Shown in pieces: positions 5,726 through 60,903 of a DNA stretch of 64,000 nt. The number at the start of each line of letters is the position of its first letter. The first letter of the stretch is position 1. The notes beneath the pieces are model-generated. The model did not search any database and was not told the DNA's origin. It saw only the letters and a list, made by a program, of their open reading frames with translations. This DNA is from Prevotella sp. (lineage in GTDB: Bacteria > Bacteroidota > Bacteroidia > Bacteroidales > Bacteroidaceae). The position numbers and the translations under genes were made by a program. The stretch is taken from assembly GCA_017469955.1 (NCBI GenBank), contig JAFUFJ010000014.1, forward strand, positions 54,601-118,600, in the 5' to 3' direction.

Positions 5726-5857
5726 CTTTATAAAGGCAGGTTGTTTGTGCATGAACAACAAGGAATCTCTGTGCGAAAGATGATCTATTGCTGTGCAAAA
5801 GATGATGTTTTGGCCAGCAAAAGATGATCTTTTGGTGCAAGAAGCCTTTGAGTCTAC
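5726..5857 (+). repeat. Degenerate 22-bp tandem array (about 6 units)
   Basis: Three adjacent units at 5770, 5792 and 5814 share GCRAAAGATGATSTWTTG at exactly 22-bp spacing. The blocks before (5726, 5748) and after (5836) are weaker and keep the phase. It lies in the 313-bp convergent gap between valS and the DUF3078 gene, where I see no coding potential. Confidence 0.65.
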
Positions 5858-5881
5858 GGGAATAACGGTGAGGCAATATAT

Positions 5882-5915
5882 GAATAAGGGACGCCCGTCC
5901 GGGCGTCCCTTATTC
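5882..5915. terminator. Perfect 15-bp hairpin between convergent genes
   Basis: GAATAAGGGACGCCC pairs perfectly with GGGCGTCCCTTATTC around the loop GTCC. It is 22 bp past the stop of the minus-strand DUF3078 gene and can act as its terminator. Confidence 0.75.
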
Positions 5916-5937
5916 GTGTTGCGATGCGCGAATGAGA

Positions 5938-7239
5938 CTAAAGGGAGTAAGAGAGGCCAAACGACATGTACTCTTTGAACTGCCAATAGCCGTGGTGGTC
6001 GTCGCGTTTACGGTTGTCATCAAACCGGGGATAGACGTAGAAGGTCGAGGTCAAGTATCTTCCGATTTTGAAGTTAAACGTGTTTTCAATCTCCACCTCG
6101 GCGCGTTTGTAGGTGGTATAGCCATAGAGTCGCATCTTCCATGAGATGTTCGGGTTGAAGATGGTTGTCGTCTCGATGCGGATGCTCGAACCGTAGTCTT
6201 TCATTGTATGGTGGCCTTCGGCTATTCCGTAGCGCGTGACGAGTGCCTTTCGGCCGCAGTATTTCCAGTTGTAGGTCAGTGGAGCCACGTCGATCAGTCC
6301 GTTCATCTTCTTCTTGAACATCGACAGGTTGTATTTCATACCCGCAGAGAGCTTTACGGTCAGCGGCGACAGGATGTCGGAATAGACCACGGGGTCATTG
6401 CTTCGGTAGCCTTTCAGGTTCTGGGTAGTGGCGATGAGCGTGAACGAATAGTCCCACTTCTTGATGGCCTGCAGGCTAAGGTTGCTCGTATAGCGGAGCA
6501 GGTCGTTGTATGTCTTGAGGGTATGCAGGGTGTCGGCTTTCGACGTTTGCAGGCCGAGTTTTATTTCAAGGGTGTTGTTCCACTTGACTTTCTGCTTGTT
6601 GTTATAGTTAAGTGTCAGCACATGGTCGTTCAGGATGTTAAAGTTGTTCTCGCCTCCCTGATACCAATTAGACGAGAAGGTGTTCTGGGTCAGCGTCACT
6701 TTGAAACTGCCCGTGAACTTCCAGAAATTGGGTTTGCGCACCATGACCGGCACTTTCTCTACGTAAGCCTCATCGGGCATGGCGGTCTTTTCCGAGATGT
6801 TGGGCTGGGTTGTCGCGGGTATTGCCGTTTCGGGAGCCACGGTTATGTTCCTCCCTTCATCCTTGTGTATCCCTGCAACCAAGCCTGGACGATAGAGATA
6901 GACGTTCAAGAGCGACTCGTCTATCGAAGAATTATAGTAGTCATAGGTGTCCAAACTGTTCGAGTCTAACGAGAAACGCCGATTGGCCACGTCGTTATAG
7001 AACGACAGAGGCATGAACAAACGCAGCATGCGTTCGTCGACAGGTCGCACGCTCTGCTGACGCCTGCTGGCTTCATACAGCGAATCTATCTGGTGTTTAT
7101 ACAAAGCTAACGAGTCAGTGTAGCTCTTGATGATCTGAGTAACCGAGTCCTTTTCTGCCGATATAGAAATAGGATTCTGGGCTGACACCATGCATGTCAA
7201 CACGGCCATGATACAGGCTGATGCCGTTCGCTTATTCAT
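5938..7239 (-). CDS. DUF3078 domain protein, probable outer-membrane-associated
   Basis: 433 residues from the ATG at 7239 (MNKRTASACIMAVLTCMVSAQ, a signal peptide). An in-frame start 12 bp upstream is possible but less typical. The N-terminal third is a helical region with SYTDSLALYKHQIDSLYE. The C-terminal 250 residues are beta-rich with the DUF3078 signature around NFWKFTGSFKVTLTQ, NTFSSNWYQGGENNFN and KVKWNNTLEIKLGL, ending with aromatic, barrel-like strands (YMSFGLSYSL). Such proteins are common in Bacteroidetes and look like outer membrane beta-structures, but no function is known to me. It is a single gene with its own promoter (7276-7284) and hairpin terminator. Confidence 0.85.
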   Translation of the reverse strand: MNKRTASACIMAVLTCMVSAQNPISISAEKDSVTQIIKSYTDSLALYKHQIDSLYEASRRQQSVRPVDERMLRLFMPLSFYNDVANRRFSLDSNSLDTYDYYNSSIDESLLNVYLYRPGLVAGIHKDEGRNITVAPETAIPATTQPNISEKTAMPDEAYVEKVPVMVRKPNFWKFTGSFKVTLTQNTFSSNWYQGGENNFNILNDHVLTLNYNNKQKVKWNNTLEIKLGLQTSKADTLHTLKTYNDLLRYTSNLSLQAIKKWDYSFTLIATTQNLKGYRSNDPVVYSDILSPLTVKLSAGMKYNLSMFKKKMNGLIDVAPLTYNWKYCGRKALVTRYGIAEGHHTMKDYGSSIRIETTTIFNPNISWKMRLYGYTTYKRAEVEIENTFNFKIGRYLTSTFYVYPRFDDNRKRDDHHGYWQFKEYMSFGLSYSL

Positions 7240-7275
7240 ATTTCCCATCATAAAACATTAATATTCATTCTTGGT

Positions 7276-7284
7276 GCAAAATTA
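7276..7284 (-). promoter_or_regulatory. -7 box of the DUF3078 gene
   Basis: Minus strand TAATTTTGC, about 36 bp ahead of the chosen start. Confidence 0.55.
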
Positions 7285-7324
7285 CAAAAATCAATCAAAA
7301 CACCATACATATCATAAAAAAATA

Positions 7325-7357
7325 TTTGGAAGTTAACCTTTTTATTAGTACCTTTGC
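7325..7357 (+). promoter_or_regulatory. yidC promoter
   Basis: TTTG at 7325, 20 bp, then TACCTTTGC at 7349-7357. The leader to the yidC ATG is about 115 nt and contains the short palindrome TTGCGACAGTGTCGCAA at 7440-7456. Confidence 0.65.
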
Positions 7358-7476
7358 AGATTGTTAAATATAAAATATTTAGAGTCCTGACTTCAATTAT
7401 ATTATAGCATCAAACTTTAGGGAATAAACATTAAGTATATTGCGACAGTGTCGCAACGCATAAAACAAATAAACAA

Positions 7477-9381
7477 ATGGATAAAAACACTACAACAGGT
7501 TTCGTTCTCATCATTCTCGTATTGCTGATTTTCAGCTGGTGGTCACAACCTTCTGAAGAACAGCGCCGTGCACAGTTCGTACAAGACTCTATTGAGCAAG
7601 CCAGCATTCAACAAGCTCAGCATGAAGCCGAACTGAAAGAACTCGCACAAAGTCAGGAAGCACGCCAGCAAGTGCTGGCCGATTCGACAGCACTCTTCCA
7701 TGCAGCACTCACTGGGGAGGCAAAACAGATTGTGCTTAAGAATGAAAAAACAGAACTTACCTTCTCTACAAAAGGAGCAAACGTCGAAAAAGCCGTCATC
7801 AAGGGGTACAATGACCAAGAAGGAAACCCTGACCTCACCCTCTTTGAAGGTGGCAAAGAACAGCAAATCAACTACATGCTCTCTGCCAAAGAGACCAACA
7901 TTGAGACGCAGAGCCTCTATTTCCAAGTCACAGAATCAAACGACACGTCTGCGACCTTCGTGGCTGAAGCCGGAGACAACAAGAACATAACCATCCGTTA
8001 TCAATTGGGAAAAGACTACCTGCTTCACATGCAAATGAAAACAGAAGGCATGGCCGGGCTGTTTGCTCCCAACACCAATCAGATGGACATCTCTTGGACT
8101 GGCATGTGTAGACAGCAAGAACGTGGCTTCATGTTTGAGAACCGTTATGCCACGCTGACATATAAAAAAGACGGGGCTTCGACCGACCATCTGAGCGAAA
8201 CTTCCGAGAAAACCAAGACTATTGAGGAGCAACTCAACTGGGTTGCATTCAAAGACCAGTTCTTCTCAAGCATCATGATTGCCAAGAACGACTTTGCGTC
8301 CCAAGCCACACTCACCTCGATTCCGCAGCAGAAAGGCTCCGAATATCTGAAAGAATACCGGGCACAGCTGAAGACTTTCTTCGACCCGACCGGCCAGGAA
8401 GCTACCGAATTTGAGTTCTACTATGGCCCTAACGATTTCAGAATTCTTCAAAATACTGAAAAGGAAAGCACATTCGGCAAAGACCTTCAGCTGAAAAAGC
8501 TCGTCTATCTCGGATGGTGGATTGTCCGCTGGATTAACCGTTGGTTCACGGTTTATGTCTTCGACTGGCTCACAAGACTTGGACTCAACATGGGCATAGT
8601 GCTCATTCTCATCACGCTATTGCTAAAAGCCATCACATTCCCGCTGGTGAAAAAGAGCTACATGTCGTCAGCAAAGATGCGCGTACTGAAGCCGAAACTC
8701 GACGCCGCTACAGCCCAATATGACAAACCAGAAGACCAGATGATGAAGCAACAGGCCATGATGAGCGAGTATGCAAAGTACGGCGTCTCGCCTCTATCAG
8801 GCTGCTTGCCTATGCTAATACAGATGCCTATCTGGATTGCCATGTTCAATTTTGTGCCTAATGCCATACAACTGCGTGGCGAAAGCTTCTTGTGGATCAA
8901 AGACCTTTCTACGTATGACCCCATTGTTGAATGGGGAAAGAACATCTGGCTCATTGGCGATCACCTGTCGCTCACCTGCATTCTTTTCTGTGGAGGCAAC
9001 ATTCTCTATTCAATGATGACCATGCGGCAGCAGCGCGATCAAATGGTAGGACAACAGGCCGAACAAATGAAGATGATGCAATGGATGATGTATCTCATGC
9101 CACTGATGTTCTTCTTCATGTTCAATGACTATTCAAGTGGTCTTAACTTCTATTATTTCGTCTCACTTTTCTTCTCGGCTGCCATCATGTGGACACTCAG
9201 AAAAACCACTAACGATGCAAAACTCTTGGCATCCCTTGAGCGACGTTATGAGGAGAACAAGAACAACCCACAAAAGAAAAACAGCGGATTGGCTGCACGA
9301 CTCCAAGCCATGCAGGAACAGCAGATGGAAATGCAACGCCAACGCGAAGAGATGATCAAGCGCAGAAATCAACAGAAATAA
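7477..9381 (+). CDS. yidC: Membrane protein insertase YidC
   Basis: 634 residues. It inserts and folds inner membrane proteins, alone or with SecYEG. The order is: N-terminal membrane segment (about residues 6-22, TGFVLIILVLLIFSWW), a large periplasmic beta domain (to about residue 345), then the conserved Oxa1/YidC core with transmembrane segments near GIVLILITLLLKAITFPL, GCLPMLIQMPIWIAMF and LMPLMFFFMFNDYSSGLNFYY. The C-terminal tail is rich in Gln, Arg and Met (EQQMEMQRQREEMIKRR), a basic ribosome-facing extension. It is 14 bp upstream of the DUF1846 gene, so the two are probably co-transcribed. Confidence 0.96.
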   Translation: MDKNTTTGFVLIILVLLIFSWWSQPSEEQRRAQFVQDSIEQASIQQAQHEAELKELAQSQEARQQVLADSTALFHAALTGEAKQIVLKNEKTELTFSTKGANVEKAVIKGYNDQEGNPDLTLFEGGKEQQINYMLSAKETNIETQSLYFQVTESNDTSATFVAEAGDNKNITIRYQLGKDYLLHMQMKTEGMAGLFAPNTNQMDISWTGMCRQQERGFMFENRYATLTYKKDGASTDHLSETSEKTKTIEEQLNWVAFKDQFFSSIMIAKNDFASQATLTSIPQQKGSEYLKEYRAQLKTFFDPTGQEATEFEFYYGPNDFRILQNTEKESTFGKDLQLKKLVYLGWWIVRWINRWFTVYVFDWLTRLGLNMGIVLILITLLLKAITFPLVKKSYMSSAKMRVLKPKLDAATAQYDKPEDQMMKQQAMMSEYAKYGVSPLSGCLPMLIQMPIWIAMFNFVPNAIQLRGESFLWIKDLSTYDPIVEWGKNIWLIGDHLSLTCILFCGGNILYSMMTMRQQRDQMVGQQAEQMKMMQWMMYLMPLMFFFMFNDYSSGLNFYYFVSLFFSAAIMWTLRKTTNDAKLLASLERRYEENKNNPQKKNSGLAARLQAMQEQQMEMQRQREEMIKRRNQQK

Positions 9382-9395
9382 CACCAGAAACGATT

Positions 9396-10859: not shown

Positions 10860-10886
10860 TATTGAACATATAATAAACGATGAGAC

Positions 10887-13040: not shown

Positions 13041-13088
13041 CACATGACGGCATCTGAGCCGTAAACTCAAAAGAAAAAAGCATCTAAA

Positions 13089-13149
13089 ACGAAGAGAGAG
13101 AGCACCTGTTGCGAGTCTGATCCTGCGCCAAGGTGCTCTCTCTCTTCGT
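13089..13149. terminator. Bidirectional terminator, 19-bp perfect stem
   Basis: ACGAAGAGAGAGAGCACCT pairs with AGGTGCTCTCTCTCTTCGT across a 23-nt loop between the convergent S9 peptidase and AlkZ-related-like genes. Confidence 0.75.
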
Positions 13150-13174
13150 GTTGTTTCCGACTCTTGCCCTGTTC

Positions 13175-13837
13175 CTATCTTATCAGTCGTTCTATCTGTC
13201 TGTCCGAAGCCTGGGGCAAGAGAGCATGCAGATGGGAGTACATCAGGCCGAACGACTCCTGGGGAGTGTGCTGACTTTGGCAGGCTTCACGCCCATAGAG
13301 CTGTTCGGGCGTGGTCAGCAACGACCATCCCCAGCCGTATTCCCGCCCGTGCTTGTCAACAGGATAGACGAAATCTTCGGTCACTATGTAGCATGCCGAC
13401 TGCAGACGAGTGACATAGCCGTCAAACTTGCTTCTCATCTTGGGGCCGTTGAACCCGCAGGCTGCACGCAGTTCGCGCGTGATAGTGCTTCCGTTTTCGC
13501 GCAGTGTGCCAAGGATGGCCTCTTCTATCGACCCTTCTTCCGGATAAGGATGCTGGCTCCGGCGGCAGTTGCAGAAGTCGCTCCACCACGACATGCTGAT
13601 GAATCCTGCCTTGCCATTGAAAAACTTCCCGTAGACACAATTGCCTTCTGTCACCACGGGGCCTTTCCATTTCCACAGAGGCCAGTCCCATCCGCCGTCG
13701 GGAAACACGACGTACCTGCATTCTTCATCCACCAGTTCTTCTGCCGAAAAGCCCTCAATGCCACTGTCAAGCAGTGGCAGGAAGCCGATCTCCTGTATCA
13801 GTTCTATCAGTTGGGCACAAGAATGTATTTCTTTCAT
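13175..13837 (-). CDS. AlkZ-related-like protein, function unknown
   Basis: 220 residues, soluble. Visible blocks are EIGFLPLLDSGIEGFSAEEL, then a Trp-rich region (GGWDWPLWKWKGPVV), GNCVYGKFFNGKAGFIS and WWSDFCNCRR, and a C-terminal half with TITRELRAACGF and KMRSKFDGYVTRLQSA. The pattern recalls short Bacteroidetes proteins annotated as AlkZ-related, that is, distantly like the winged-helix DNA glycosylases AlkZ/YcaQ. I make this link from memory of the pattern and cannot test it. The glycosylase catalytic motif is not evident. No promoter was identified. Confidence 0.55.
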   Translation of the reverse strand: MKEIHSCAQLIELIQEIGFLPLLDSGIEGFSAEELVDEECRYVVFPDGGWDWPLWKWKGPVVTEGNCVYGKFFNGKAGFISMSWWSDFCNCRRSQHPYPEEGSIEEAILGTLRENGSTITRELRAACGFNGPKMRSKFDGYVTRLQSACYIVTEDFVYPVDKHGREYGWGWSLLTTPEQLYGREACQSQHTPQESFGLMYSHLHALLPQASDRQIERLIR

Positions 13838-14150: not shown

Positions 14151-14260
14151 GACAGACGATTCATACACGTAAGATGTATGGAGCATACCAGGCAGATGTA
14201 TCAAGCGTACATCGGGCATGTATGAAGCGTACCAGGCAGATGTACAGCCATGGAACGGAG
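14151..14260 (+). repeat. 22-bp tandem array with GTAYG-N3-CRTAC cores (5 units)
   Basis: Units start at 14151, 14173, 14195, 14217 and 14239. Units 2-4 carry GTATGGAGCATAC, GTATCAAGCGTAC and GTATGAAGCGTAC at the same place, with 9-bp linkers such as CAGGCAGAT. The outer two keep half a core. A related array lies at 60816-60903. Confidence 0.75.
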
Positions 14261-14311
14261 GCCTCCTGCGTGACAACGAGCACGATATAATTGATAGAAA
14301 TCGGCCGTTTA

Positions 14312-14522
14312 TCTTTGCATCTCGCCCGCTTATTCCCAACTTTAGATAAGTTACTCCCGCTCGACAATACCAACAAAAACGAAAACAAGTTCTCGTTTTT
14401 TCTTTGCATTGTCCTCGCTTATTTGCAACTTTGGATAAGTTACTTCCGCTCGACAATACCAACAAAAACGAAAACAAGTTCCCGTTTTTCTTTGCATTGT
14501 CCTCGCTTATTCGTAACTTTGC
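14312..14522 (+). repeat. Tandem promoter module, about 2.4 copies of 88-89 bp
   Basis: Copies begin at 14312, 14401 and 14489. The two full ones share GATAAGTTACTYCCGCTCGA, CAATACCAACAAAAACG and AAAACAAGTTCYCGTTTTT. Each ends in a promoter-like stretch, but only the last has the full consensus TAACTTTGC (14514-14522). Confidence 0.8.
14491..14522 (+). promoter_or_regulatory. Promoter of the first MFS gene
   Basis: TTTG at 14491, 19 bp, then TAACTTTGC at 14514-14522, giving a leader of about 37 nt to the ATG at 14565. Confidence 0.7.
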
Positions 14523-14564
14523 ATGCAATTTAGAAATTATAAGTTCATAATACAATCAAACAAA

Positions 14565-17191: not shown

Positions 17192-17899
17192 CTATATCAG
17201 CGAAAAGGCCACATCCATCATGTGAGTAAAGGATGTTTGACGCTCTTCTGCTGTCGTAACTTCACCGGTAATGAGGCTGTCGGAGATCGTACAGATGACC
17301 AAAGCACGATTGCCTGAGCGTGCTGCATTCATATAAAGGGCAGGAGCTTCCATCTCAACTGCCAGCACTCCCATGTTCATCCATTTCTCATTATAGGCAT
17401 TTTCCGAGTAGAACACATCCGAAGAGAACACGTTTCCCACCTTATAGTGATAGCCAAGCCTGTCACAAGTATCGGCAGCTCTACGCAAGAGTTCAAAGTC
17501 AGCTATAGGAGCATAGGTACCGGGAAGGTCGTATTGGGCTGCATAATTGGAATTTGTACATGAGCCCATAGCTATGACAAGGTCACCCAAATGGAGCTCA
17601 GGGTGCAGAGAACCTGCCGAGCCGACACGGATAATCGTCTTTACTCCATAAAAATTGTAGAGCTCATAGCTATAGATACCTATTGACGGAATGCCCATTC
17701 CATGCCCCATTACACTCACTCGCTTACCCTTATATGTACCCGTGAAGCCGAGCATTCCACGGACATTGTTAAATTGAACAGGATTTTCCAGAAACTTATC
17801 GGCCATGAATTTGGCACGCAAGGGGTCGCCTGCCATGATTACAGTCTCAGCTATTTCGCCAAGTTTTGCCTCGATATGGGGAGTTGGTGTATTACTCAT
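17192..17899 (-). CDS. deoD: Purine nucleoside phosphorylase, DeoD type
   Basis: 235 residues, the standard length for trimer-of-dimers DeoD. It cleaves purine (deoxy)ribonucleosides with phosphate to give base and (deoxy)ribose 1-phosphate. Signatures: [62 protein letters not shown], and the catalytic Asp in [10 protein letters not shown]. It lies between the TIGR03916-type and TIGR03915-type genes on the same strand, with gaps of 23 and 30 bp, so all three look co-transcribed. The position inside a predicted DNA repair pair is unusual and may hint at salvage of a damaged nucleoside, which is inference. Confidence 0.95.
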
Positions 17900-17922
17900 A
17901 TGTCCTTTTGTTTAATTAGTTT

Positions 17923-19227
17923 TCAACTCTTTTCGGTTTCCTTTTCCTCGAACTCCAGCCTCAACTGCCGTTCAGCAGCCACTTGCTTTTGCAACGACTT
18001 TGAGATAAGCAGTGGACGCAGGCGCTCCGGATGAAGCTCGTTGATGCCGATAATCGGCGTAGAATAGCCGTCAGCCAGCTCTCCGCAGGTAATAAAGTAT
18101 TTGGCCTTCTTCATTACAACGCCCATTTTCTTTAAGTGATATGACGTTACACGGCCAAACCTGCGAGAGTTGACGATGAGCATTGCCGACTTGACTCCTA
18201 TGCCAGGCACGCGAAGAATCTGCTCATAATCAGCCGTATTGATATCCACAGGAAAGGATTCTGGATGCCGAAGTGCCCACGAAAGCTTCGGGTCTATGTC
18301 CAAGTCAAGGTTGGAATGTGCATCATCTACAATCTCATCAACCTTGAATTGATAGAACCTCAAGAGCCAGTCTGCTTGATATAAACGGTTCTCTCTGACC
18401 AAAGGTGGTTGTTTCAAGAGTGGCAAACGAGGGTCATAATTGACACTGATGTAGCCCGAATAATAGACACGACGCATTGAAGGCTGCCCATATAGTGTCG
18501 AAGACATTCTTAGTATGTCTTTGTCGGTTTCCTTTGTTGCCCCGACTATCATCTGAGTGCTCTGTCCGGCAGGCACAAAACGTGGGGCATATCGATACTT
18601 CCGTCGGTCTTCCTTGTTTTCTATTACGCCCTGTTGTATGAGGTGCATGGGTTGGAACACGCTCTGATGGTCTTTTTCCGGAGCAAGTCTCTTGAGCGAT
18701 TCTTCCTTGGGAATTTCGATGTTTACGCTCATTCGGTCTGCATAACGCCCTGCTTCGGCCAGCAGTTCACGGCTGGCTCCAGGAATACTTTTTAAGTGAA
18801 TATATCCATTAAAGCGGTGAACGGTGCGGAGATCTCTTACGATTGCCGTCAGCCTCTCCATCGTGTAATCGGGATTTCTGACCACTCCACTGCTCAGGAA
18901 CAGTCCTTCAATATAGTTTCGACGATAGAATTCCATCGTGATTTCCTCGAGTTCCGACACTGACAATGTTGCCCGTCGAATGTCATTCGAACGGCGATTG
19001 ATGCAATAAGCGCAGTCGTATTTGCAGTAGTTTGTCAACATAACCTTCAGTAAAGAGATACATCTGCCGTCGTCAGCAAACGAGTGACATATGCCGACAC
19101 CGCCAACAGTATTTCCAACCATGCCCTGTTTTCCTTTGCGCACAGTTCCGCTTGACGAGCACGACACGTCATATTTGGCCGACTCTGCCAGTATCCTTAA
19201 CTTTTCTAAAGTTTTCTCTGTCAACAT
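17923..19227 (-). CDS. Putative DNA modification/repair radical SAM protein (TIGR03916 type)
   Basis: 434 residues from the ATG at 19227. A TTG three codons upstream lies inside the -7 box and is rejected. The radical SAM cluster motif CX3CX2C is Cys68, Cys72, Cys75 (NYCKYDCAYCINRR). Additional N-terminal cysteines at 23, 47 and 56 may bind a second metal site. Residues about 320-380 form a helix-hairpin-helix DNA-binding region (INTADYEQILRVPGIGVKSA), supporting action on DNA. The family is predicted to work with TIGR03915 proteins; the substrate is not known. The transcript seems to start almost at the ATG, since only 5 bp separate the -7 box from it. Confidence 0.88.
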   Translation of the reverse strand: MLTEKTLEKLRILAESAKYDVSCSSSGTVRKGKQGMVGNTVGGVGICHSFADDGRCISLLKVMLTNYCKYDCAYCINRRSNDIRRATLSVSELEEITMEFYRRNYIEGLFLSSGVVRNPDYTMERLTAIVRDLRTVHRFNGYIHLKSIPGASRELLAEAGRYADRMSVNIEIPKEESLKRLAPEKDHQSVFQPMHLIQQGVIENKEDRRKYRYAPRFVPAGQSTQMIVGATKETDKDILRMSSTLYGQPSMRRVYYSGYISVNYDPRLPLLKQPPLVRENRLYQADWLLRFYQFKVDEIVDDAHSNLDLDIDPKLSWALRHPESFPVDINTADYEQILRVPGIGVKSAMLIVNSRRFGRVTSYHLKKMGVVMKKAKYFITCGELADGYSTPIIGINELHPERLRPLLISKSLQKQVAAERQLRLEFEEKETEKS

Positions 19228-19449: not shown

Positions 19450-20805
19450 ATGGCTGAAGCAATAGCACGAAAGCTCAACGATTCGCCGATGGCCCGTTGG
19501 ACTGTTTTATTCATTGTTGCATTTACAATGATGATGGGATACTTCATCAACGACGTGATGTCTCCGCTTGAAACGTTGCTTGAAACACCCGTGAGCGAGG
19601 GTGGACTGGGCTGGTCGAGCACCGACTATGGTTTCTTTTCGGGTTCAAGCAGTTTCATCAATGTCTTCCTTCTGATGCTTTTCTTCAGCGGATTGATTCT
19701 CGATCGCATGGGAGTTCGCTTCACTGGTGTGCTGGCTTGCTTGCTGATGATTGCCGGAGTGCTCATCAAGATATATGCCATCACTGCTCCTCTTGGCGGA
19801 CATACATTTACATTCTCGGCCTTTAACCTTCATCTTCCTCTCTCAGCAGCCTTAGCAGCCTTGGGGTTTTCTGTATTCGGAGTAGGCTACGAAATGTGCG
19901 GCATCACTGTTTCGAAGGTGATGGTTCGCTGGTTCACAGGCTATGAACTCGGCCTTGCCATGGGCCTTCAGGTAGCCTTAGCCCGCCTTGGTACGGCTTC
20001 CGCTCTTAGTCTTAGTGCCCCTGTTGCCATGCGCTATTCGCTTAACACTCCCCTGCTCGTCGGGCTGCTGTTTCTTACTTTCGGCTTTGTGTGCTATCTT
20101 GTCTATTGCGTGATGGACCGCCGTCTGGAGAATGAGAACAGCAAGTCGGCCGGTGAAAGCAATGCAGACGACTCGTTCCGCCTCAGCGATATCGGCAGGA
20201 TTCTGGGCAATCCAGGCTTTTGGATCGTAACGTTGCTGTGCATGGTGTTCTACTCTGCGGTCAGCCCATTCCTCAAATTTGCCACAAAACTGATGATTGC
20301 CAAGTATGGAGTCGATGCCGACGTGGCAGGCTTCTTTACCTCTATTGCCCCATTTGGCACACTGTTGCTCACCCCCATTTTTGGCAGTATATACGATAAA
20401 TTCGGCAAAGGCGTGACGATTATCATCATCGGAACCAGCATGCTCACATGCGTCTACATCGGTTTTTCACTGCCGATCCATGCCAGCGGATTTGCCATTG
20501 CGATGATGATTCTGTTGAGCATAGCCTATTCTCTGGTGCCTTCAGCACTATGGCCGGGCGTCCCTAAGATGATTCCCCTTAAGTGTCTTGGCACGGCTTA
20601 CTCCATGATCTTCTTCATCCAGAACCTCGGTCGCAGCATCGTACCCATGTGTGTAGGCAAAGCCAACGCCCTCGACCCGACCTATTCCACGTCGATGCAT
20701 ATCTTCGCCGGACTGGGATTTGCAGCTATAGGCGTTGCATTCCTGATGCTCTATGTAGACAAAAAGAAAGGCTACGGACTGCAATTGCCGAACATTAAGA
20801 AGTAG
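19450..20805 (+). CDS. MFS transporter (paralogue of the gene at 14565)
   Basis: 451 residues from the ATG at 19450 (MAEAIARKLNDSPMARWTVL). A TTG at 19417 overlaps the -7 box and is rejected. About twelve membrane segments are visible. The segment 2-3 loop FSGLILDRMGVRFTG, the linker FRLSDIGRILGNPGFW and the C-terminus DKKKGYGLQLPNIKK match the first MFS protein closely; the N-terminal extension and an extra loop are shorter. The two paralogues flank the radical SAM operon. Substrate is unknown. Its last 11 bp overlap the 3' end of the convergent ATP-grasp-like gene. Confidence 0.88.
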   Translation: MAEAIARKLNDSPMARWTVLFIVAFTMMMGYFINDVMSPLETLLETPVSEGGLGWSSTDYGFFSGSSSFINVFLLMLFFSGLILDRMGVRFTGVLACLLMIAGVLIKIYAITAPLGGHTFTFSAFNLHLPLSAALAALGFSVFGVGYEMCGITVSKVMVRWFTGYELGLAMGLQVALARLGTASALSLSAPVAMRYSLNTPLLVGLLFLTFGFVCYLVYCVMDRRLENENSKSAGESNADDSFRLSDIGRILGNPGFWIVTLLCMVFYSAVSPFLKFATKLMIAKYGVDADVAGFFTSIAPFGTLLLTPIFGSIYDKFGKGVTIIIIGTSMLTCVYIGFSLPIHASGFAIAMMILLSIAYSLVPSALWPGVPKMIPLKCLGTAYSMIFFIQNLGRSIVPMCVGKANALDPTYSTSMHIFAGLGFAAIGVAFLMLYVDKKKGYGLQLPNIKK

Positions 20806-21883
20806 TTGTCAGGCGATATCGGCCTCCTTCATATACGATGCGCAGCTGTCGGATGTGCTTTTCTGGGTCGAACATGAGGGCTACATGCCCCATTGTTCGG
20901 CGCAAATTCAGTTCTACGCAAGGATGAAGGCAAACCTTTCCGTCCATTTCCACCATCATCATGTCGACACCAAACGGCCCTTCATAGGCGGGAGCGATGT
21001 GTCTGTCGGCCAATGAGACGATGGCATCACGCACGCTATCCAGCAAGTCAAGGTCGACATAGCTGCCCAATCTCGCCCGTTTCTGATGCTCGGTTGCAAC
21101 AAGATTGCCCGTATAGGCGCCCCGCTCGGTGGTGAAAAGCGACAGGCCAAGGTAACGTGTCTGGCGCTGACTGCTCGTTTCTTCTGCCGGCGACTCGACC
21201 TGAAACTCCATGGCAAAGTCGCACACCTTATTATATAATGGCTCGACCATAATGCCTCCTTGCTGGGCTATGACCCGCTCGGCCCATGTCAAGTTGTGCG
21301 ACCATCCTGCCTCGTCTCGGGCATAACGCACACCTCTGCCCGTCGAACTCCATGGAGATTTCAGCACGACAGGCAGGCCATAGGGCATGCCATTCAGACT
21401 TTCCACCATGCACGAATCGCCCGTCAACCGCCCGTCAAGGGCTGTCAGAACGGGGAGAAATTTCTCTGAAGAGAACCTTCTATGGCTCATCGAACGCACT
21501 CTTTCAAGCCATTCGTTATCAGGAAGTAACGAATCACTAACGCATTTCCGCAGCTGTTGCACCAAAGAAACATCCCATCCCCAGGGGTCTACCGTTGACA
21601 CCTCTTCACCTGAACGGTGGAGCATCAACAGGTCATTCCGCGTCACAAGCCTCACTCTCGCCATTTTTTCAGCGAACGGTTTCATGCCGTTTTCTGCCAA
21701 AGCCACATCGTCGACCAGCACCAAGTCGCCCTCCTCTGCCCACAAAGCAGGCAGAAAGCCGAGGTCGCGACGCAGCTCTCGGCCTGCCCTTGGTGCCGTA
21801 AACCGTGCAAGATTGGCAGCCAAGGCAAGGTCATGTTCGGGATTGAACACGTGCAGCCGATATCCTTTTTGATGTCTTTCCAT
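20795..21883 (-). CDS. Conserved protein with ATP-grasp-like region
   Basis: 362 residues, soluble. The N-terminus (MERHQKGYRLHVFNPEHDLALAAN) is a conserved Bacteroidales pattern without known function. The middle and C-terminal part reads like an ATP-grasp ligase: GLPVVLKSPWSSTGRGVRY (residues about 165-185) resembles the small-domain lysine and glycine loop, MVEPLYNKVCDFAMEFQV the central strands, and the end has PFGVDMMMVEMDGK and PCVELNLRRTMGHVAL with metal-binding Glu and Asn. This assignment is by eye. A ligase activity on an amino acid or peptide would be expected if correct. The transcript begins about 70 bp upstream. Confidence 0.6.
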   Translation of the reverse strand: MERHQKGYRLHVFNPEHDLALAANLARFTAPRAGRELRRDLGFLPALWAEEGDLVLVDDVALAENGMKPFAEKMARVRLVTRNDLLMLHRSGEEVSTVDPWGWDVSLVQQLRKCVSDSLLPDNEWLERVRSMSHRRFSSEKFLPVLTALDGRLTGDSCMVESLNGMPYGLPVVLKSPWSSTGRGVRYARDEAGWSHNLTWAERVIAQQGGIMVEPLYNKVCDFAMEFQVESPAEETSSQRQTRYLGLSLFTTERGAYTGNLVATEHQKRARLGSYVDLDLLDSVRDAIVSLADRHIAPAYEGPFGVDMMMVEMDGKVCLHPCVELNLRRTMGHVALMFDPEKHIRQLRIVYEGGRYRLTTTS

Positions 21884-21965: not shown

Positions 21966-22031
21966 ATGAAAATCCATCAGACCTGAAGAATTATCCTGAA
22001 TTTTTCTGACAACAAAGGCCTCCAAACCACC

Positions 22032-22384
22032 ATGAGAATCGATTTTTCGGAACAAAAAAATATTTCACCGAGAATTTTCAAGTTATAGCGCACCGCTATA
22101 ATCCATTATCTAACAGAGAGTTAACACTTTTCTTCACAAAAATTGCCCGAAAACACGCTGAGAACACTTAGCTTTCTTCACATGAAAGATGCTCTTTCTC
22201 GCGAAAAACCCTTTGACATCTGCCCGCGAAAAGGCCTGCTTCTGGCCGAGAATGGGCAGCCTTCTCACCGAAAACCAGCCTAAGCCAGCCCGAAAACCAC
22301 CACTTTTCCACACAAGAAGCCTCAACACTGGCGCTAAAAATCAAAAAATACATGACAGAAATTCGTCGTATCTTTTCTTGACAA
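22032..22384 (+). repeat. 353-bp intergenic element with ten 22-bp units (copy 1)
   Basis: It starts ATGAGAATC, has a 74-bp left flank, then ten 22-bp units from 22115 to 22334, then a 50-bp AT-rich right flank ending TTTTCTTGACAA. It lies in the 711-bp gap upstream of pyrG and aligns without a gap, base for base in length, with the element at 28815-29167. Typical unit starts are CGAGAATGGG, CGAAAACCAG and TGAGAACACT. Sequence identity is moderate, but flanks and phase are conserved. Confidence 0.85.
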
Positions 22385-28745: not shown

Positions 28746-28814
28746 GGAGCCGGCCGGAAAGCAGACAAGAGTCCTGCCATGAAAAATCATGACAGCAGAG
28801 TCCTTTGTACCGCA

Positions 28815-29167
28815 ATGAGAATCAAAAATTCGGAGCAAGAAAATATTTCAGCCGGAATTTCGCAGTTATGCCACATCAAAGTAACGCGCTAAGCGACAGC
28901 GAGTTGGCACTTTCCACTCTCAGAAGGGGCCGGAGACAGGCCGAGAAAGGATAGCTTTCAAGACGAGAAAGATGCCCGTTCTCATTGAGAACCCGATGAT
29001 TTCCCAGCATGAAAAGAAAGGTTTCCTCCCGAGAAAGCTGTCCTTTCTCGGGACGAACCAGTATCAGGCAGCCTCAAAACACTGCCTTTTCACCCCGAGA
29101 ACCGCCCCGTCCGTTGCTAAAAACCACAAAAACACTGACAGAAAAATGCAATGATTTTTCTTGACAA
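28815..29167 (+). repeat. 353-bp intergenic element with ten 22-bp units (copy 2)
   Basis: It starts ATGAGAATC and ends TTTTCTTGACAA like copy 1, from which it is offset by a constant 6783 bp. Ten 22-bp units run from 28898 to 29117. Unit 7 (29030) includes the perfect palindrome CCCGAGAAAG-CTGTC-CTTTCTCGGG at 29028-29052. It lies between carB and the AAA ATPase. Confidence 0.85.
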
Positions 29168-34501: not shown

Positions 34502-34611
34502 TGAGAAACCTATCCTTTCAGCCCGAGAAACCTATGGGTTATGCCCCAGAAAGCTATGATTTATTGACAAGAAAGCTAAGACTTCTCGGGCTGAATCCTA
34601 AGCTTTCTCCG
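34502..34611 (+). repeat. Five-unit 22-bp array, left copy
   Basis: Units at 34502, 34524, 34546, 34568 and 34590 begin TGAGAAACCT, CGAGAAACCT, CCAGAAAGCT, CAAGAAAGCT and GCTGAATCCT. AGCCCGAGAA and TTCTCGGGCT can close the array as a hairpin. It matches 36794-36903 with three internal differences. Confidence 0.9.
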
Positions 34612-36793: not shown

Positions 36794-36903
36794 TGAGAAA
36801 CCTATCCTTTCAGCCCGAGAAACCTGTGGGGTATGCCCCAGAAAGCTATGACTTATTGACAAGAAAGCTAAGACTTCTCGGGCTGAATCCTAAGCTTTCT
36901 CTG
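36794..36903 (+). repeat. Five-unit 22-bp array, right copy
   Basis: Near-identical direct copy of 34502-34611 (differences at three internal positions and one near the 3' edge). The blocks 36750-36793 and 36904-36925 keep the 22-bp phase, so the array may be longer here. Confidence 0.9.
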
Positions 36904-52629: not shown

Positions 52630-52739
52630 CGAGAAAGCTGTCCCTTCTGCCCAAGAAGTCTTAGGGTTATCGTCGAGAAAGGATAGACTTCTCACCCAGA
52701 AAGCTTAGACTTCTCGACCTAAAACGTAAGCTTTCTCGG
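52630..52739 (+). repeat. Five-unit 22-bp array between nrdD and glgP
   Basis: Units at 52630, 52652, 52674, 52696 and 52718 begin CGAGAAAGCT, CAAGAAGTCT, CGAGAAAGGA, CCAGAAAGCT and CCTAAAACGT. Unit by unit they match the arrays at 34502 and 36794. The rest of the 742-bp gap (52356-52629) shows no gene. Confidence 0.85.
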
Positions 52740-52834
52740 CAACCTTCCTGCCAGCAGTGCTTCTCCTTCGGCAGTCTGCTCTGCGCAGAAAGCACGGCAA
52801 CTCCCTGACGGTCAGCGTGAAAACACAAAAATAA

Positions 52835-52886: not shown

Positions 52887-52969
52887 CGATGCAATCAACT
52901 CCGTCGGGTTCTCGAGCTTCTTGCCAAGAGAAGCTCACCGAACGCTTCGGACTTCTCGCTGCCTTTTTC

Positions 52970-55531: not shown

Positions 55532-55564
55532 AACTTGTTATCTTATGTTCTGTTTGTTGTTCTG

Positions 55565-57265
55565 CTATTGGTTTTCAGATGATTTCATACGCTGTTCGGC
55601 CTTGCATAAAGCCAAGTCATAGGCCGTTCGATAGTAGGAAATGAAGTGACTCCACAACGCTTTCTTCGACAAACGGAAAGCGTTTGTACGCGATTTTGCC
55701 ACATCTCCCCTATCCATCTTCGCATATTCCAATACCGTGTCGCGAATCTCGTCAGCCACTTCATGGTAGTTATAGTCTGTGCGATGAATCACCTTCACGC
55801 CGTTCATGATGCTGTTTCTGCCGTTCTCTGCCGTCAATGCCCACTGGCCAAAGCCGGCTAAGCCCGTAGTGATGCAGGGCACTTTGAAGGCAATTGACTC
55901 TAACGGGGTATACCCCCATGGCTCATAATAAGAAGGATAGACCGTGAGATCATTGCCAAGAACGACATCATAGTACGACATATTGACAATACCGTCGGTG
56001 CCGTTCAGATAGCTCGGTACGAATATCACGGTCACTTGGCTGCCGTTCTCGTTCGCCATGCCAAGATATCCCATCATGCCCAGCACACGGTCTTCATCCA
56101 TATTGTGCAGCCAATGGGTGATATAGGGGTTTTCCAAGGCGTCCTTATATACCACTTCAGCTCCAGATTCGAGACGATTCTGCAGGTCTGCACGTGGACA
56201 TGCCACCCATGCCGGTACCTCAACAAAGGCTAACACCTGACGGTTCAGCCCTTCAGAAAAGCGCAAACGGTTCATCGCATCGATGAAAACATCGATGCCT
56301 TTATTACGGAATTCATAGCGTCCGCTGGTCGAAACAATGAGCGTATCGGCATCAAACTCCCGCCCGGTCAAGGCATTTGCCACCCTCATCAGTCGTCTAC
56401 GAGCAGCTGAACGCTTCTTGGTAAAAGCATTCCCCGTCGGTACAAATCCGTCTTCAAAACCATTTGGAAGCACTACGTCGGCAGGTTTTCCGATCAAGGC
56501 TTTGCACTCTTCGTCGGTAATATTGCTGACCGTCGTAAAACAATCAACATGCAAAGCAGTCTGCTTCTCTATCGAGTGTTTGCTTTGCATGTTCAGCTCC
56601 TCAGCCATCTGGTCACCGTCATAGGCACAAAGATAGTCGTAAAGCGGCTTGTTGTTGCCTGCAATGCTGCGGCCAATGCTGGTAGCATGAGTCGTAAAGA
56701 CTGTTGCAACCTGGGGTAAATGCTGCCGGATATACAACAGGCCGAGGCCGGTCATCCACTCGTTCCCGTGGAAAACAACCCGTACATTTTCGTCAAGATA
56801 GAAACGATAGAAGCTCTCTACCGTGCGACCTGCTGCATAGGAAAACATAGAAGCCTCGTCGTAGTCGCCGTAAGCATGCAGACTGTCCACCTGAAAGGCT
56901 TCCCAAAGTCTGGTATAGATAGCGTCTTTCTGAGCAAAAAAGGGTTTGAAGTCAACCAATACTGCTATAGGATTTCCCGGAACATCCCATCGACCTATGC
57001 GCAAGGCAAGGCCTTCTTGCGACGCCTTTTCCCGCCAATCAGCAAAAAGACTGTCATCTTCCACGAAGTAAGGAGAATGCTGTTCTTCCCAGCAATCTGG
57101 TCCAATAAATACGAGATGGTCAGGAAAAAGGGCCTGCAACGTCTTGGCACGCGTCGAGAGAACGGTATAAATACCGCCAACCTTGTTACAAACTTCCCAA
57201 CTTGATTCAAATATATAGTCCGGACATCGCAGTCCGTCAAACCCACGGTCTGTACTTCTATCCAT
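55565..57265 (-). CDS. Glycogen synthase (Bacteroidetes/eukaryote-like type)
   Basis: 566 residues from the ATG at 57265; an upstream GTG at 57286 overlaps the -7 box. The pattern SSWEVCNKVGGIYTVLSTRAK, FHGNEWMTGLGLLYIR, TTHATSIGRSIAGNN, TTVSNITDEEC, LPNGFEDG and YEPWGYTPLESIAFKVP matches the glycosyltransferase family 3-like synthases found in Bacteroides and eukaryotes. It adds glucose to glycogen, from UDP-glucose in the eukaryotic enzymes; donor here is not shown. First gene of the operon with glgP. Confidence 0.9.
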   Translation of the reverse strand: MDRSTDRGFDGLRCPDYIFESSWEVCNKVGGIYTVLSTRAKTLQALFPDHLVFIGPDCWEEQHSPYFVEDDSLFADWREKASQEGLALRIGRWDVPGNPIAVLVDFKPFFAQKDAIYTRLWEAFQVDSLHAYGDYDEASMFSYAAGRTVESFYRFYLDENVRVVFHGNEWMTGLGLLYIRQHLPQVATVFTTHATSIGRSIAGNNKPLYDYLCAYDGDQMAEELNMQSKHSIEKQTALHVDCFTTVSNITDEECKALIGKPADVVLPNGFEDGFVPTGNAFTKKRSAARRRLMRVANALTGREFDADTLIVSTSGRYEFRNKGIDVFIDAMNRLRFSEGLNRQVLAFVEVPAWVACPRADLQNRLESGAEVVYKDALENPYITHWLHNMDEDRVLGMMGYLGMANENGSQVTVIFVPSYLNGTDGIVNMSYYDVVLGNDLTVYPSYYEPWGYTPLESIAFKVPCITTGLAGFGQWALTAENGRNSIMNGVKVIHRTDYNYHEVADEIRDTVLEYAKMDRGDVAKSRTNAFRLSKKALWSHFISYYRTAYDLALCKAEQRMKSSENQ

Positions 57266-57284
57266 AGTTTTCGTTATAGCGCAC

Positions 57285-57293
57285 ACAAAGTTA
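57285..57293 (-). promoter_or_regulatory. Glycogen operon -7 box
   Basis: Minus strand TAACTTTGT, about 20 bp ahead of the ATG at 57265; this supports the shorter start. Confidence 0.65.
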
Positions 57294-57405
57294 CTTACAT
57301 TTTGTCAGAAAAATGCCGTACCGGACAGAAAAATAACGAAACCTTTATATTTATTGATTTAAAACATCTCTGCCTGTCGTCTCTTGCCGTCCTTCCAACT
57401 GAATC

Positions 57406-57444
57406 ACAAAAAAGACGGCAACATCATCACTGTGCTACCGTCTC
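57406..57444 (-). terminator. Terminator of the LRR/small-ORF transcript
   Basis: AGACGG pairs with CCGTCT; on the minus strand it ends in TTTTTT. Confidence 0.65.
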
Positions 57445-57513
57445 AAGTTCATAATAATTAGAAAATAAACTTATCAGTATTCCTCCTCACGAGGATGCTT
57501 TTAGCCAAACTTT

Positions 57514-57705
57514 CTACTTCCAGAGTTCCCAGGAGTCGTCCCATTTTGCGTCAGGATCGTCATTTGGATCTCCGTCACCTCCGAAGTCCCACTTGTCTTG
57601 TCCGGCCAAAGAACCCTCAGCTCCATAGCTTGCCTGGTTCATTTGTTGCATCAGAGGCTCGACGGTTACGTCGGAAATCTCTGGCTTGATATATGTTTTT
57701 TTCAT
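57514..57705 (-). CDS. Small acidic protein, 63 residues, precursor-like
   Basis: It begins MKKTYIKPEISDVTVEPLMQ, a pattern seen in many short Bacteroidetes proteins, and continues QMNQASYGAEGSLAG, then an acidic, Trp- and Asp-rich tail (DKWDFGGDGDPNDDPDAKWD, then DSWELWK). There is no classic signal peptide. It is 19 bp after the LRR protein gene, same strand, with a terminator after it, so it is probably expressed from that transcript. No modifying enzyme or transporter is adjacent. Function unknown; a peptide precursor or small exported protein are options. Confidence 0.7.
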   Translation of the reverse strand: MKKTYIKPEISDVTVEPLMQQMNQASYGAEGSLAGQDKWDFGGDGDPNDDPDAKWDDSWELWK

Positions 57706-57724
57706 ATCTGTTTCCTCCTTTTGA

Positions 57725-60490
57725 CTATTTGATTGCGACTTTCTTTCCGTTCACGATGAAGATACCTGCAGGCAATTCTTCTGGAGCAACGTCCAGTTTG
57801 CGTCCCTGCAAGTCGTAGATGCCAATGCTCACGGCTTCAGCTTCCACGTCTTCGATGCCGGTCGGGTTGGGATTAAAGAGCTTTGCATTAGAGGTTGATG
57901 CTCCGCCATCGGTCTTCAAGCCGTCGACTGAGATCGACCAGTAACAGCGGCAAGCACGAATTGTTGCGGCATGGTCGGCATCGGGCACGCGGTAGAACTT
58001 GGCCACTTCATTCTCGTCATACTGCCATCCGCCGTTGCCGTCCTCGGTCTTGTTCTTGTACATGAAGTAAAAGTCCCACGGGAAGAGCTTGTAGTCAAGG
58101 TAGCGACCCTTCATGGTGATGACGGCTCCGTCTTCGGCATTAGCGCTGTAGCCATGGTCCTTGGTCGACTCTGTCTTGAAGTAGTCCTCGATGGTGTTTT
58201 CGGCTTCATAGAACGTATACTCCGTCTGGTGGGCGGGCTTGATGAGCAATGGCAGATTGGCCGGTATGCCATCTCCCTCCAACAGCTTGAATTCGATGTT
58301 ATAGACACGGGTGGCCTTGCCGTTGACACTCTGTGTAGAATACTTGAACGTCTTGTCCTGATCCATCACAGCCACGAGCGTTCCCTCGCCAAAGACATCG
58401 GCATAATTCTCCTGACCGTATGGGAACAGGGCCGTCACCCACACGTTAGGCATCAGCGTGCGCTTGGTGTCAGGGATGGCAGTCAGCCAGTTGCCGAACT
58501 TACCGTTCTCGGGATCGTATACGCCATTTTCGTTAATACGGCTCCAAACGGGGTCGTTGACATAGCCTTCCAGGTTCCCGCTGGTCGTGTAGAAGGTGCA
58601 CTTACTGACGGCCTCCTTACAAAGCGTCTCATTGGCTGAGAAGGTGCTTGAAGATGAACCCGATGTGCCTTCGGCATACTCGCCCTGAAGGGCAGCTGCA
58701 GGGCCAAGGATGTAGACCGACTCCAGGCTTTCGCATCCGTGGAAACTGGCTCCGTCGATATACTTGACGCTCACGGGAATGGTAAGCATCTTGAGCGACG
58801 AGCAGCTGCAGAGGAAGTGAGGACCGATGCGTTCCAGTGTGTTTGGCAGGCGAAGGGTAGTCAGGCTGGTCAGGTATTGCAGCGAAGCACCCGACCGCTG
58901 ACCCTCAATCTCGGTGATGCCGTCGGGCAGTTCGAGCGTTGGCAATGAAGTACACAGCCAGAAGGTGAAGTTCTTGATGGTCTTGATCTTGGTCGTGAAC
59001 GAGCCGTCATCGGCCTTTTGGAACTCTACATCCGTCAGCTTCGTGTCCATTTCGAAGGCTCCTTGCCCGAGGAACTCTACCGTGTTTGGTATCTTCACCG
59101 AAGTCAGCTTCTTACAACTCATGAAGGCATAGTCGCCGATAGAGCGGAGATTTGACGGACTTTCAAACGTAACCGTCTCCAGATACCAGTTGCTATGGTC
59201 GTCGACAAGTCTTCCATGGTATGTTATATTGTCTGGATTAGGGATGTTGTTGGTTACTTCGCAGTTGAAGACCTCCTCCACGTCTTCCTGCTTATAGCAC
59301 AGACCCCACTTCTGAATGGCTACAACCTTGCGGCCATCGGGGGCAGTTTGAGGGATGACAGCATTCTTTACATGAGAGGTACCGATAGTGCGAGTGACAT
59401 TATAAGTATATGCTCGACGATAAATAGGAGTACCATCAGTGAGGGTATTGAACTGCTCCCAATTGTTATCCATACTTACAAAACGATAAACAACATTGTC
59501 ACCAAATTCGTTATCACTATCAACAACTGTGGTAGTAGAATTATTTAATCGAGTTGTGCCATCGTCAGCTAATGGATAAAGATTAGCTGCGTCGCTATTG
59601 TTGGATCGATTAATTAGGCTGCTTCCATTCAAATCGAAATAGTACCAGTTAGTGTAATAGGAATAACCATAATTATCATCATATCTATATCTATAATATG
59701 TCTTTGTCTCCGTCACTTCTTCTGCCGTGAGATGGAGGCTGATGGCGCACTCATCGTCGGGCAGGATGATCTCGGTACCTGTGGTACGATAGTAACGATT
59801 GGAGTAGTCCCAGACGCCATCGGTGGTTACGGTGGCTGCCGTCGATGCTACATAGTTCACGTAGATGTTTCCGAGGTAGCCGAGCTGGGCTTCGTTGGTG
59901 TTGACATAGTAGCTGGTGGTATAGCCACTGATGGGGCGAGCCTGGATGTAGTTGCTCACGTTAGCAGTGGTGAGCGTCGGTATTTCGTCCGTTCCGGTCT
60001 TCTGGATCTCGAGCACGGTGGCGTCGGCTGCAGACGTGATGCGTCCGTTCGTAGGATTGGATCCCGTAAGGGTATAGCCTGCTCCGGGCAGCGTCGACAT
60101 CTCGTAGAGCACGCGATAGCGCACGGTCTTGGGCGAATAGGCGATGGTGATGACGCCATAATAGCCTGTCGGAGCGTTGCGAGTGCTGACGGTAATCGAA
60201 GCATCATAGTCCGTTACTTCACGTGCCTTAATGTAATTACCGATGTTCTGTGTACTAAGTGCCGTTGGATTGCTGTTATAACCCGTACCGTTACGATACG
60301 TCACCAGCGTCTCCGCATCATAGCCAGAGGTAATTGAGCCGTCGGTCAACTGCGTGTTTTGGACCGTGTAGCCTGCTCCTTGCGAGGTTGTTCGCCCAGT
60401 GTAGACCACCTGATAGTTGCGGGTTCCACCCAGCACCACGTTCACTCCTCCCGCCAACATCAGCAGGAGCAGCAGAAATTGTTTTTTCAT
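57725..60490 (-). CDS. BspA-like leucine-rich-repeat surface protein with sorting region
   Basis: 921 residues from the ATG at 60490 (MKKQFLLLLLMLAGGVNVVLG, signal peptide). Residues about 25-210 hold two tandem modules, each with 'Y.V.Y......GAGYT', 'ITS..DA..L' and 'YI.AR.....Y....N'. Next is an Asp/Tyr/Asn-rich region, then five to six BspA-type LRR_5 units (IGDYAFMSCKKLTSVKIPNT, LGQGAFEMDTKLTDVEF, LERIGPHFLCSCSSLKMLTI). The C-terminal region SIGIYDLQGRKL..LPAGIFIVNGKKVAIK looks like a T9SS sorting domain. Likely surface-attached and interacting with host or other bacteria. Confidence 0.9.
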   Translation of the reverse strand: MKKQFLLLLLMLAGGVNVVLGGTRNYQVVYTGRTTSQGAGYTVQNTQLTDGSITSGYDAETLVTYRNGTGYNSNPTALSTQNIGNYIKAREVTDYDASITVSTRNAPTGYYGVITIAYSPKTVRYRVLYEMSTLPGAGYTLTGSNPTNGRITSAADATVLEIQKTGTDEIPTLTTANVSNYIQARPISGYTTSYYVNTNEAQLGYLGNIYVNYVASTAATVTTDGVWDYSNRYYRTTGTEIILPDDECAISLHLTAEEVTETKTYYRYRYDDNYGYSYYTNWYYFDLNGSSLINRSNNSDAANLYPLADDGTTRLNNSTTTVVDSDNEFGDNVVYRFVSMDNNWEQFNTLTDGTPIYRRAYTYNVTRTIGTSHVKNAVIPQTAPDGRKVVAIQKWGLCYKQEDVEEVFNCEVTNNIPNPDNITYHGRLVDDHSNWYLETVTFESPSNLRSIGDYAFMSCKKLTSVKIPNTVEFLGQGAFEMDTKLTDVEFQKADDGSFTTKIKTIKNFTFWLCTSLPTLELPDGITEIEGQRSGASLQYLTSLTTLRLPNTLERIGPHFLCSCSSLKMLTIPVSVKYIDGASFHGCESLESVYILGPAAALQGEYAEGTSGSSSSTFSANETLCKEAVSKCTFYTTSGNLEGYVNDPVWSRINENGVYDPENGKFGNWLTAIPDTKRTLMPNVWVTALFPYGQENYADVFGEGTLVAVMDQDKTFKYSTQSVNGKATRVYNIEFKLLEGDGIPANLPLLIKPAHQTEYTFYEAENTIEDYFKTESTKDHGYSANAEDGAVITMKGRYLDYKLFPWDFYFMYKNKTEDGNGGWQYDENEVAKFYRVPDADHAATIRACRCYWSISVDGLKTDGGASTSNAKLFNPNPTGIEDVEAEAVSIGIYDLQGRKLDVAPEELPAGIFIVNGKKVAIK

Positions 60491-60677
60491 TTTGAATACC
60501 ATCATAAAAATTTTGGTTTTACTATTATACTTCCCTAAATCGTATTATTATCAACATATTTCAACGCTCAACTGCGAAAAGCAGGAAAGCGCTGACCATC
60601 AGAGTCTTGCAAGAGCAACAAAGAGAAACGTGTCCACAGCGATCGTGGCACTTAACTTAATATTATACTATTTTCAT

Positions 60678-60686
60678 GCAAAGGTA
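60678..60686 (-). promoter_or_regulatory. -7 box of the LRR protein gene
   Basis: Minus strand TACCTTTGC, giving a leader of about 180 nt to the ATG at 60490. Confidence 0.55.
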
Positions 60687-60815
60687 CTATTAAATATCTG
60701 ACACACAAAACTTTTCTGTATCTTTTTTCGCTTTTTAACATTTTCGGCATCTGTCATCCGCCAAAAGCATCGTCCTCGATTCTTCATGGCCCAGAGGCGG
60801 GCTTGAGAACCCTGA

Positions 60816-60903
60816 CCTTTCTGGCTCGTACACCATAGATGTACGAACCATACCAGCAACGTGTATGGAGCATACACACGAGATGTATGCACAAGAAAGA
60901 AAA
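60816..60903 (+). repeat. 22-bp array with GTAYG-N3-CRTAC cores (4 units)
   Basis: Units at 60816, 60838, 60860 and 60882. The inner two carry GTACGAACCATAC and GTATGGAGCATAC at the same offset as in the array at 14151. Confidence 0.7.

Follow-up and report, generated by a model that had tools for sequence, protein, structure and literature searches.

The window is a 64-kb stretch of a Prevotella genome (positions 54601-118600 of contig C19; assembly G000, 2,259,279 bp in 22 contigs, 75.6% complete) whose intergenic regions hold eight arrays of 22-bp units. An earlier note on this DNA had claimed that all eight regions can be aligned at 22 bp, and laying out each of them confirms it. They do not form the single class that had been proposed; families A, B and C and a long ten-unit element are represented among them. 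Three family-A elements of five units each lie on the forward strand at 34502-34611, 36794-36903 and 52630-52739. The first two are copies of each other, identical at 106 of 110 positions (96%), and therefore are not independent examples; their flanks are unrelated. The long element occurs twice on the same strand, with its ten in-phase units at 22115-22334, upstream of a CTP synthase gene, and at 28898-29117, upstream of an AAA_14 ATPase gene. Conserved arms border both blocks, the left ones at 22007-22114 and 28790-28897 and the right ones at 22335-22384 and 29118-29167.

The remaining features carry no strand assignment. A three-unit core of family C (CAAWASATNATSTWTTG type), defined by layout and motif, spans 5774-5834, and the extra units once ascribed to this array, at 5748-5769 and 5836-5857, are its weak in-phase neighbours. 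Family B, whose units are of the RTAY...RTAY type, contributes a four-unit core at 14163-14245, defined by layout and motif and called by TRF as an array at 14172-14244, and a three-unit core at 60828-60888 that stays below the autocorrelation threshold; an A-like unit at 60803-60824 lies in phase with the latter. Neighbouring genes encode a DUF3078 protein (5938-7251) and a 362-aa protein without a Pfam match (20795-21883), and a BspA-type leucine-rich repeat protein of 926 aa (Pfam LRR_5) is encoded at 57725-60505. Separately, positions 14305-14521 hold 2.5 copies of an 89-bp tandem repeat that ends just before an ORF start at 14523. Its copies contain a TAACTTTGC-like stretch, which we take to resemble a duplicated Bacteroidetes promoter.

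Autocorrelation (88-bp windows, at least 50% self-identity, lags 8-60) yields eight self-similar windows at lag 22 in the 64 kb, six at its harmonic 44, one at lag 12 and none at any remaining lag. Across 435.6 kb of G000, a sample in which 5 kb are counted twice since two stretches overlap, there are 87 windows at lag 22, 55 at lag 44 and at most eight at any other. The anticipated period is thus the sole peak besides its harmonic at both scales. By this measure six of the eight reported regions stand, and 28898-29117 and 60816-60903 fall under the threshold. The former is backed by a gap-free alignment to the 22115 array and a reverse-strand A-type match of 67 bits, and the latter by the family-B motif. 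A three-unit GAA/TT pattern with one mismatch finds 549 forward and 547 reverse matches in G000; its reversed control finds 65 and 88. The 22-bp feature is real, ordered and non-random.

Family A is the best defined group. A weight-matrix scan of 807,825 bp of G000 found 66 elements at 90 bits or more and 76 at 20 bits or more, with no element at 20 bits or more in the same sequence reversed; extrapolated from the 66, the genome would hold about 185 copies. Each element consists of five units and has inverted ends, CGAGAAAGCT...AGCTTTCTCG. The unit reads GAA-XXX-NNN-YYY-TTC plus a linker, where XXX is mostly AGC, AGG, GTC, CCC, CTC or ACC and YYY mostly their reverse complements. Units are position-specific: in the 66 elements, AGC is the left triplet of the first unit 61 times, GAC the right triplet of the fourth 59 times and GCT the right triplet of the fifth 62 times. 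The half-sites are inverted within the unit, GAA near position 5 and TTC near position 17, so that direction alternates every 10-12 bp, on roughly one side of the DNA.

The other families account for much of what remains. Autocorrelation detected 131 arrays in G000, of which 63 lie away from any family-A element; four of these 63 fall in long ORFs, and about 47 of the other 59 were assigned by eye to family B or C. Unit number is largely fixed: five in A, mostly three in C (20 of 26 arrays, with four or five in the rest), mostly three to four in B, and four in two other species. A left arm similar to that of the long element adjoins two further arrays, on contig C4 at about 55.1 kb and about 66.8 kb.

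Phase is kept with great precision. All 267 neighbouring strong family-A unit pairs spaced 17-27 bp apart sit at exactly 22 bp, and pairs near 44, 66 and 88 bp are just as exact, with one off-spacing pair at looser thresholds. Family-C unit pairs within 70 bp fall at 22 bp (60 pairs), 44 bp (34), 66 bp (8) and, once, 63 bp. In a second species, represented by genome G039, the spacing is exactly 22 bp in 115 of 115 unit pairs. This absence of indels is striking, given that copies share on average 72% identity for family A in G000 (50 non-redundant elements of the 66, the set also used for symmetry) and 74% in G039.

The frame also extends past the cores. Around 61 family-A elements the flanks are otherwise unrelated, and weak half-sites persist in them in phase: on the left, unit -1 has T at position 17 in 47 of the 61, and on the right, unit 8 has A at position 5 in 49. 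Strong A-like units are rare there, occupying 4 of the 132 positions that lie 22 bp from a core, and mean A-unit scores at 22, 44, 66 and 88 bp from the cores exceed those at all other distances. A-like units further lie 22 bp from C cores at 11 of 52 flank positions, and from B cores at 13 of 64 (some family-B arrays entered these and the symmetry counts in two phases), with one match over 63 other distances together in each case. Families that look unrelated therefore share one 22-bp frame. The flank signal in G039 is weaker and shorter than in G000.

Comparison with other genomes shows the same geometry in different letters. Without mismatch, the GAA/TT pattern occurs in 43 of 80 genomes of the genus (17 of them with a single match) and in 18 of 119 genomes of the order (13 with a single match), G000 being included in both; the reversed control also matches in many genomes, partly since other 22-bp motifs fit it. 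The letters of the matched units vary between species. Period-22 arrays appeared in six of nine genus genomes sampled at about 40 kb each, several of them picked for high counts and G012 (340 bases) left out, and three of the nine had none. Relatives within the genus were sampled as 20 stretches of some 20 kb each, a non-random set of 14 near relatives and six genomes picked for pattern or control matches, with coding sequence unfiltered; there lag 22 leads with 21 arrays and the next lag has 12. Twenty stretches of the order (314 kb) gave five arrays at lag 22 and no peak. Among 80 loci around tnaA relatives (1.48 Mb), 20 lag-22 arrays occur in 17 loci, and lag 22 does not rise above lags 12, 18, 21, 24, 27, 33 and 36; array density therefore varies widely.

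Dyad symmetry accompanies the period. Over 38 stretches from the genus, unit dyad symmetry reaches P<=0.05 in 29 of 34 period-22 arrays. The corresponding figures are 10 of 28 arrays with period 21, 5 of 17 with period 24 and 4 of 18 with period 14; at lags 27 and 33 it was found in 3 of 5 and 5 of 7. Within G000 it is significant in 117 of 124 arrays. Several other Prevotella genomes thus contain arrays with other letters and the same period and symmetry, and G039 carries a family of its own, mostly of four units, with 38 elements in 435 kb. The architecture may extend beyond Prevotella, since a genome from another family of the order (G502, locus L186) has 22-bp palindromic arrays at 8910-9064 and 17803-17953, of the GAAACTTTAGTTTC type and the TGCCA...TGGCA type.

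Individual positions are conserved far less than the architecture. Of 19 relatives, one carries an array in the position that corresponds to 52630; three of these 19 loci reach less than 340 bp past the gene, and 70 of the 398 genomes in this search were left unscored. Between G000 and G039, four spacers are co-occupied among 56 matched genes (odds ratio 2.6, P=0.14). As orthologous spacers are mostly not co-occupied, turnover or mobility is favoured over a conserved positional role.

The earlier note knew of no described family with these properties in the genus, and this needs correction. PINSR, a 188-bp intergenic repeat of P. intermedia (Naito et al. 2015, PMC4755523), is reported there with 177 and 184 copies, no coding sequence, no terminal inverted repeats and specificity to a species group, with a copy beyond tnaA and a positive PCR for P. 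falsenii. Genome G084 (two contigs of 1,965,935 and 708,235 bp) very probably belongs to the P. intermedia group; its TnaA is 98% identical to those of P. falsenii and P. aurantiaca. About 230 bp beyond its tnaA stop lies a four-unit 22-bp element with arms, roughly 190-200 bp in all (locus L219, tnaA at 1492-2868 on the reverse strand, array at 1103-1259). Matches to one of its units at one mismatch or fewer number at least 122 + 122, against 0 and 1 for the control; the matches listed omit the copy beyond tnaA, and no strand-biased orientation is claimed. The conserved element measures roughly 8.5-9 units including arms in 29 copies, taken from loci chosen for perfect pattern matches in one part of contig C1. 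P. falsenii has a clearly homologous element and P. aurantiaca a more diverged relative; the latter species is not among the PINSR PCR-positive ones named in PMC4755523.

PINSR is therefore probably one such 22-bp array element, an assignment based on architecture, tnaA position and copy number and not on consensus letters. Both are intergenic and high in copy number (about 185 by extrapolation for family A of G000, 177 and 184 for PINSR in PMC4755523), and the G084 element shares with PINSR the copy beyond tnaA. Families A, B and C of G000 differ from the G084 element in letters, unit number and arms. Neither '22-bp' nor '22 bp' is used anywhere in the main text of PMC4755523, and a literature search for a described 22-bp array class returned PINSR, BrickBuilt and general REP papers only. 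One member has thus probably been published, and we found no report of the class itself.

BrickBuilt of Porphyromonas gingivalis (Klein et al. 2015, PMC4596501) is alike in placing intergenic tandem units of similar size within a dispersed element. It differs, as described in that paper, in its 23-nt units present in 1 to 22.8 copies, indels of up to 6%, 19 copies, and a leader and tail with IS5-like terminal inverted repeats. Membership was rejected on the period, exactly 22 here and 23 nt in BrickBuilt. Section 7 of the same paper lists 22-, 23- and 41-nt tandem repeats in P. gingivalis.

The earlier note's suggestion of one protein per non-coding unit on one DNA face is the better-supported of its two models, as far as sequence evidence goes; locked phase, dyad symmetry and in-phase outer half-sites all point to it. 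On this basis the arrays can tentatively be regarded, with a confidence just short of even, as dispersed DNA elements with phased sites to which a putative oligomerising protein binds along one face of the DNA. Dimers of one such DNA-binding protein would fill the units side by side. A filament on one face could then be nucleated on the core and reach the weaker in-phase half-sites outside it.

A purely selfish, MITE-like element remains a serious rival to this platform reading, and we consider it possible though somewhat improbable. Here the units would serve as sites for a transposase or recombinase acting in trans, with nothing for the host, and phase would be kept as only in-phase copies move. 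The ends of Tn7 and Mu do carry transposase sites of about 22 bp. Dispersal fits this account: a family-A unit resembles the unit at the same position in other arrays (0.720) far more than its array-mates (0.597; background 0.587), from which dispersal as whole elements follows, and G039 shows the same trend less strongly (0.737, 0.691 and 0.681). Two element pairs, 1.1 and 2.3 kb apart, match at 106 of 110 positions within unrelated flanks, and a third, 3.5 kb apart, is 95% identical and shares its left flank. A selfish element would also account for the many copies and for the letter differences between species.

Several observations speak against it, however. In 34 elements, a search for target-site duplications (direct repeats of 2-10 bp, offset by up to 12 bp from the ends) showed no excess outside the element. 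Half-sites in the flanks and other families in phase with the core would not be expected from random insertion. Y1_Tnp (PF01797), the only transposase family sought, was not found in the array-rich genomes G000, G039 and G058 (76-81% complete), and some Y1_Tnp is present in 9 of 15 genomes searched. Moreover, section 3.4 of PMC4755523 gives about three quarters of PINSR-containing regions as common to two strains. On the platform reading, elements of about 110 bp would be copied without target duplication, possibly by gene conversion or by template switching among loci that lie close together. Carriage by phages was also considered and rejected, the family-A pattern having no match in IMG/VR; a close variant of the pattern was likewise not found in genome_contigs, where the host genome may be left out.

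The second model of the earlier note, transcribed hairpin arrays, or cruciforms, in which RNA or single-strand hairpins are processed or bound, is quite improbable. Its appeal lies in the palindromes: units and whole elements are imperfectly palindromic, the family-A consensus about the axis i+j=110 with 70% mean pairing (34 of 43 elements), and six elements have predicted folds of -35 to -55 kcal/mol. Pairing specific to the single element is nevertheless absent or negative. With the same element filter as in the flank analysis (which used 61), flank pairing is no different from that between swapped flanks (z -0.07) and core pairing falls below the swapped level (z -2.9), so base pairing across the dyad is not maintained relative to shuffled partners. 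Folding energies agree, with -45.5 kcal/mol for real elements, slightly better values of -48.1 for chimeras of two elements, -46.8 for unit chimeras and -44.6 for column shuffles.

Unit symmetry points the same way in two families. Equal halves occur in none of 50 inner units 2 and in none of 50 inner units 3 of family A, against 7.1 and 5.2 expected, and in 10 of 86 family-C units against 22.1, and so are avoided. Outer family-A units have them in 7 of 50 and 9 of 50 cases (8.1 and 9.8 expected). The avoidance is not a general rule, because it is absent in family B (16 of 159, 16.3 expected) and in G039 (22-26 of 38). Loop indels, which hairpins would tolerate, were not seen, and an Rfam search of the whole window at gathering threshold returned two tRNAs and no match to the arrays.

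Ordinary minisatellites grown by local slippage, a reading already largely refuted for family A, are most improbable. Tandem units without spacers and the P. gingivalis repeats mentioned above would suit them, as would G039 array C1 43070-43268, where near-identical extra units look like local expansion; yet units resemble their positional counterparts in other arrays and show no indels between them. To our knowledge, no phase-locked 22-bp frame has been described in REP, BIME or REPIN elements. An origin as REP/REPIN elements that a RAYT (Y1) transposase mobilises is equally remote, for although these too are high-copy intergenic palindromes serving as protein-binding sites (PMC2817692), their linked transposase was not found in G000, G039 and G058, at 76-81% completeness.

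Around 53 family-A elements, flanking genes are co-directional in 30 cases, convergent in 12 and divergent in 11, with no preference relative to background spacers of at least 150 bp (108, 46 and 41). Since gene orientation does not matter, a terminator or promoter reading fits poorly. Ten of the 63 elements classified for context overlapped a called ORF; three of the 66 had no neighbour in the fetched stretch. Arrays occur once per 5-11 kb, depending on the contig. With all families pooled and compared with random spacers from a crude ORF-derived gene list, evenness gave P=0.047, 0.013, 0.008, 0.27 and 0.14 on five contigs, significant on three of them only, and single families are not more even than random. 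Against an initial, less refined null, four contigs had P<0.001, 0.14, <0.001 and 0.22, and on contig C19 close array neighbours are commoner than expected. Neighbours with the same label (A versus others) number 31 of 48 on contig C6, with 23.6 expected, and the effect is weaker on other contigs. Both the even spacing and the neighbouring of like with like are suggestive only.

Such platforms might serve chromosome-wide DNA organisation and not single-gene control. A bolder proposal, which we regard as speculative and rather unlikely, is that evenly spaced 22-bp nucleoprotein platforms organise Prevotella chromosomes, one fast-evolving oligomerising protein setting the frame, the families acting as interchangeable inserts, and letters turning over while geometry stays fixed. 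It is rare for a geometry to persist across species as the letters change, and this suggests a hidden binding factor that may have coevolved with hundreds of sites per genome. PINSR, until now a lone oddity, would then be a single instance of a broader class. Should the arrays organise the chromosome, they would amount to a nucleoid system so far overlooked in a genus that is abundant in the gut and mouth.

Two further loci illustrate the variety of 22-bp repeats. Genome G241 (L154, 3853-4081) has a 22-bp direct repeat of up to 88% self-identity inside a 444-codon stop-free frame, and a 20-kb stretch of G028 (L168) has 22-bp motifs of three distinct classes, at 3048, 10251 and 16698.
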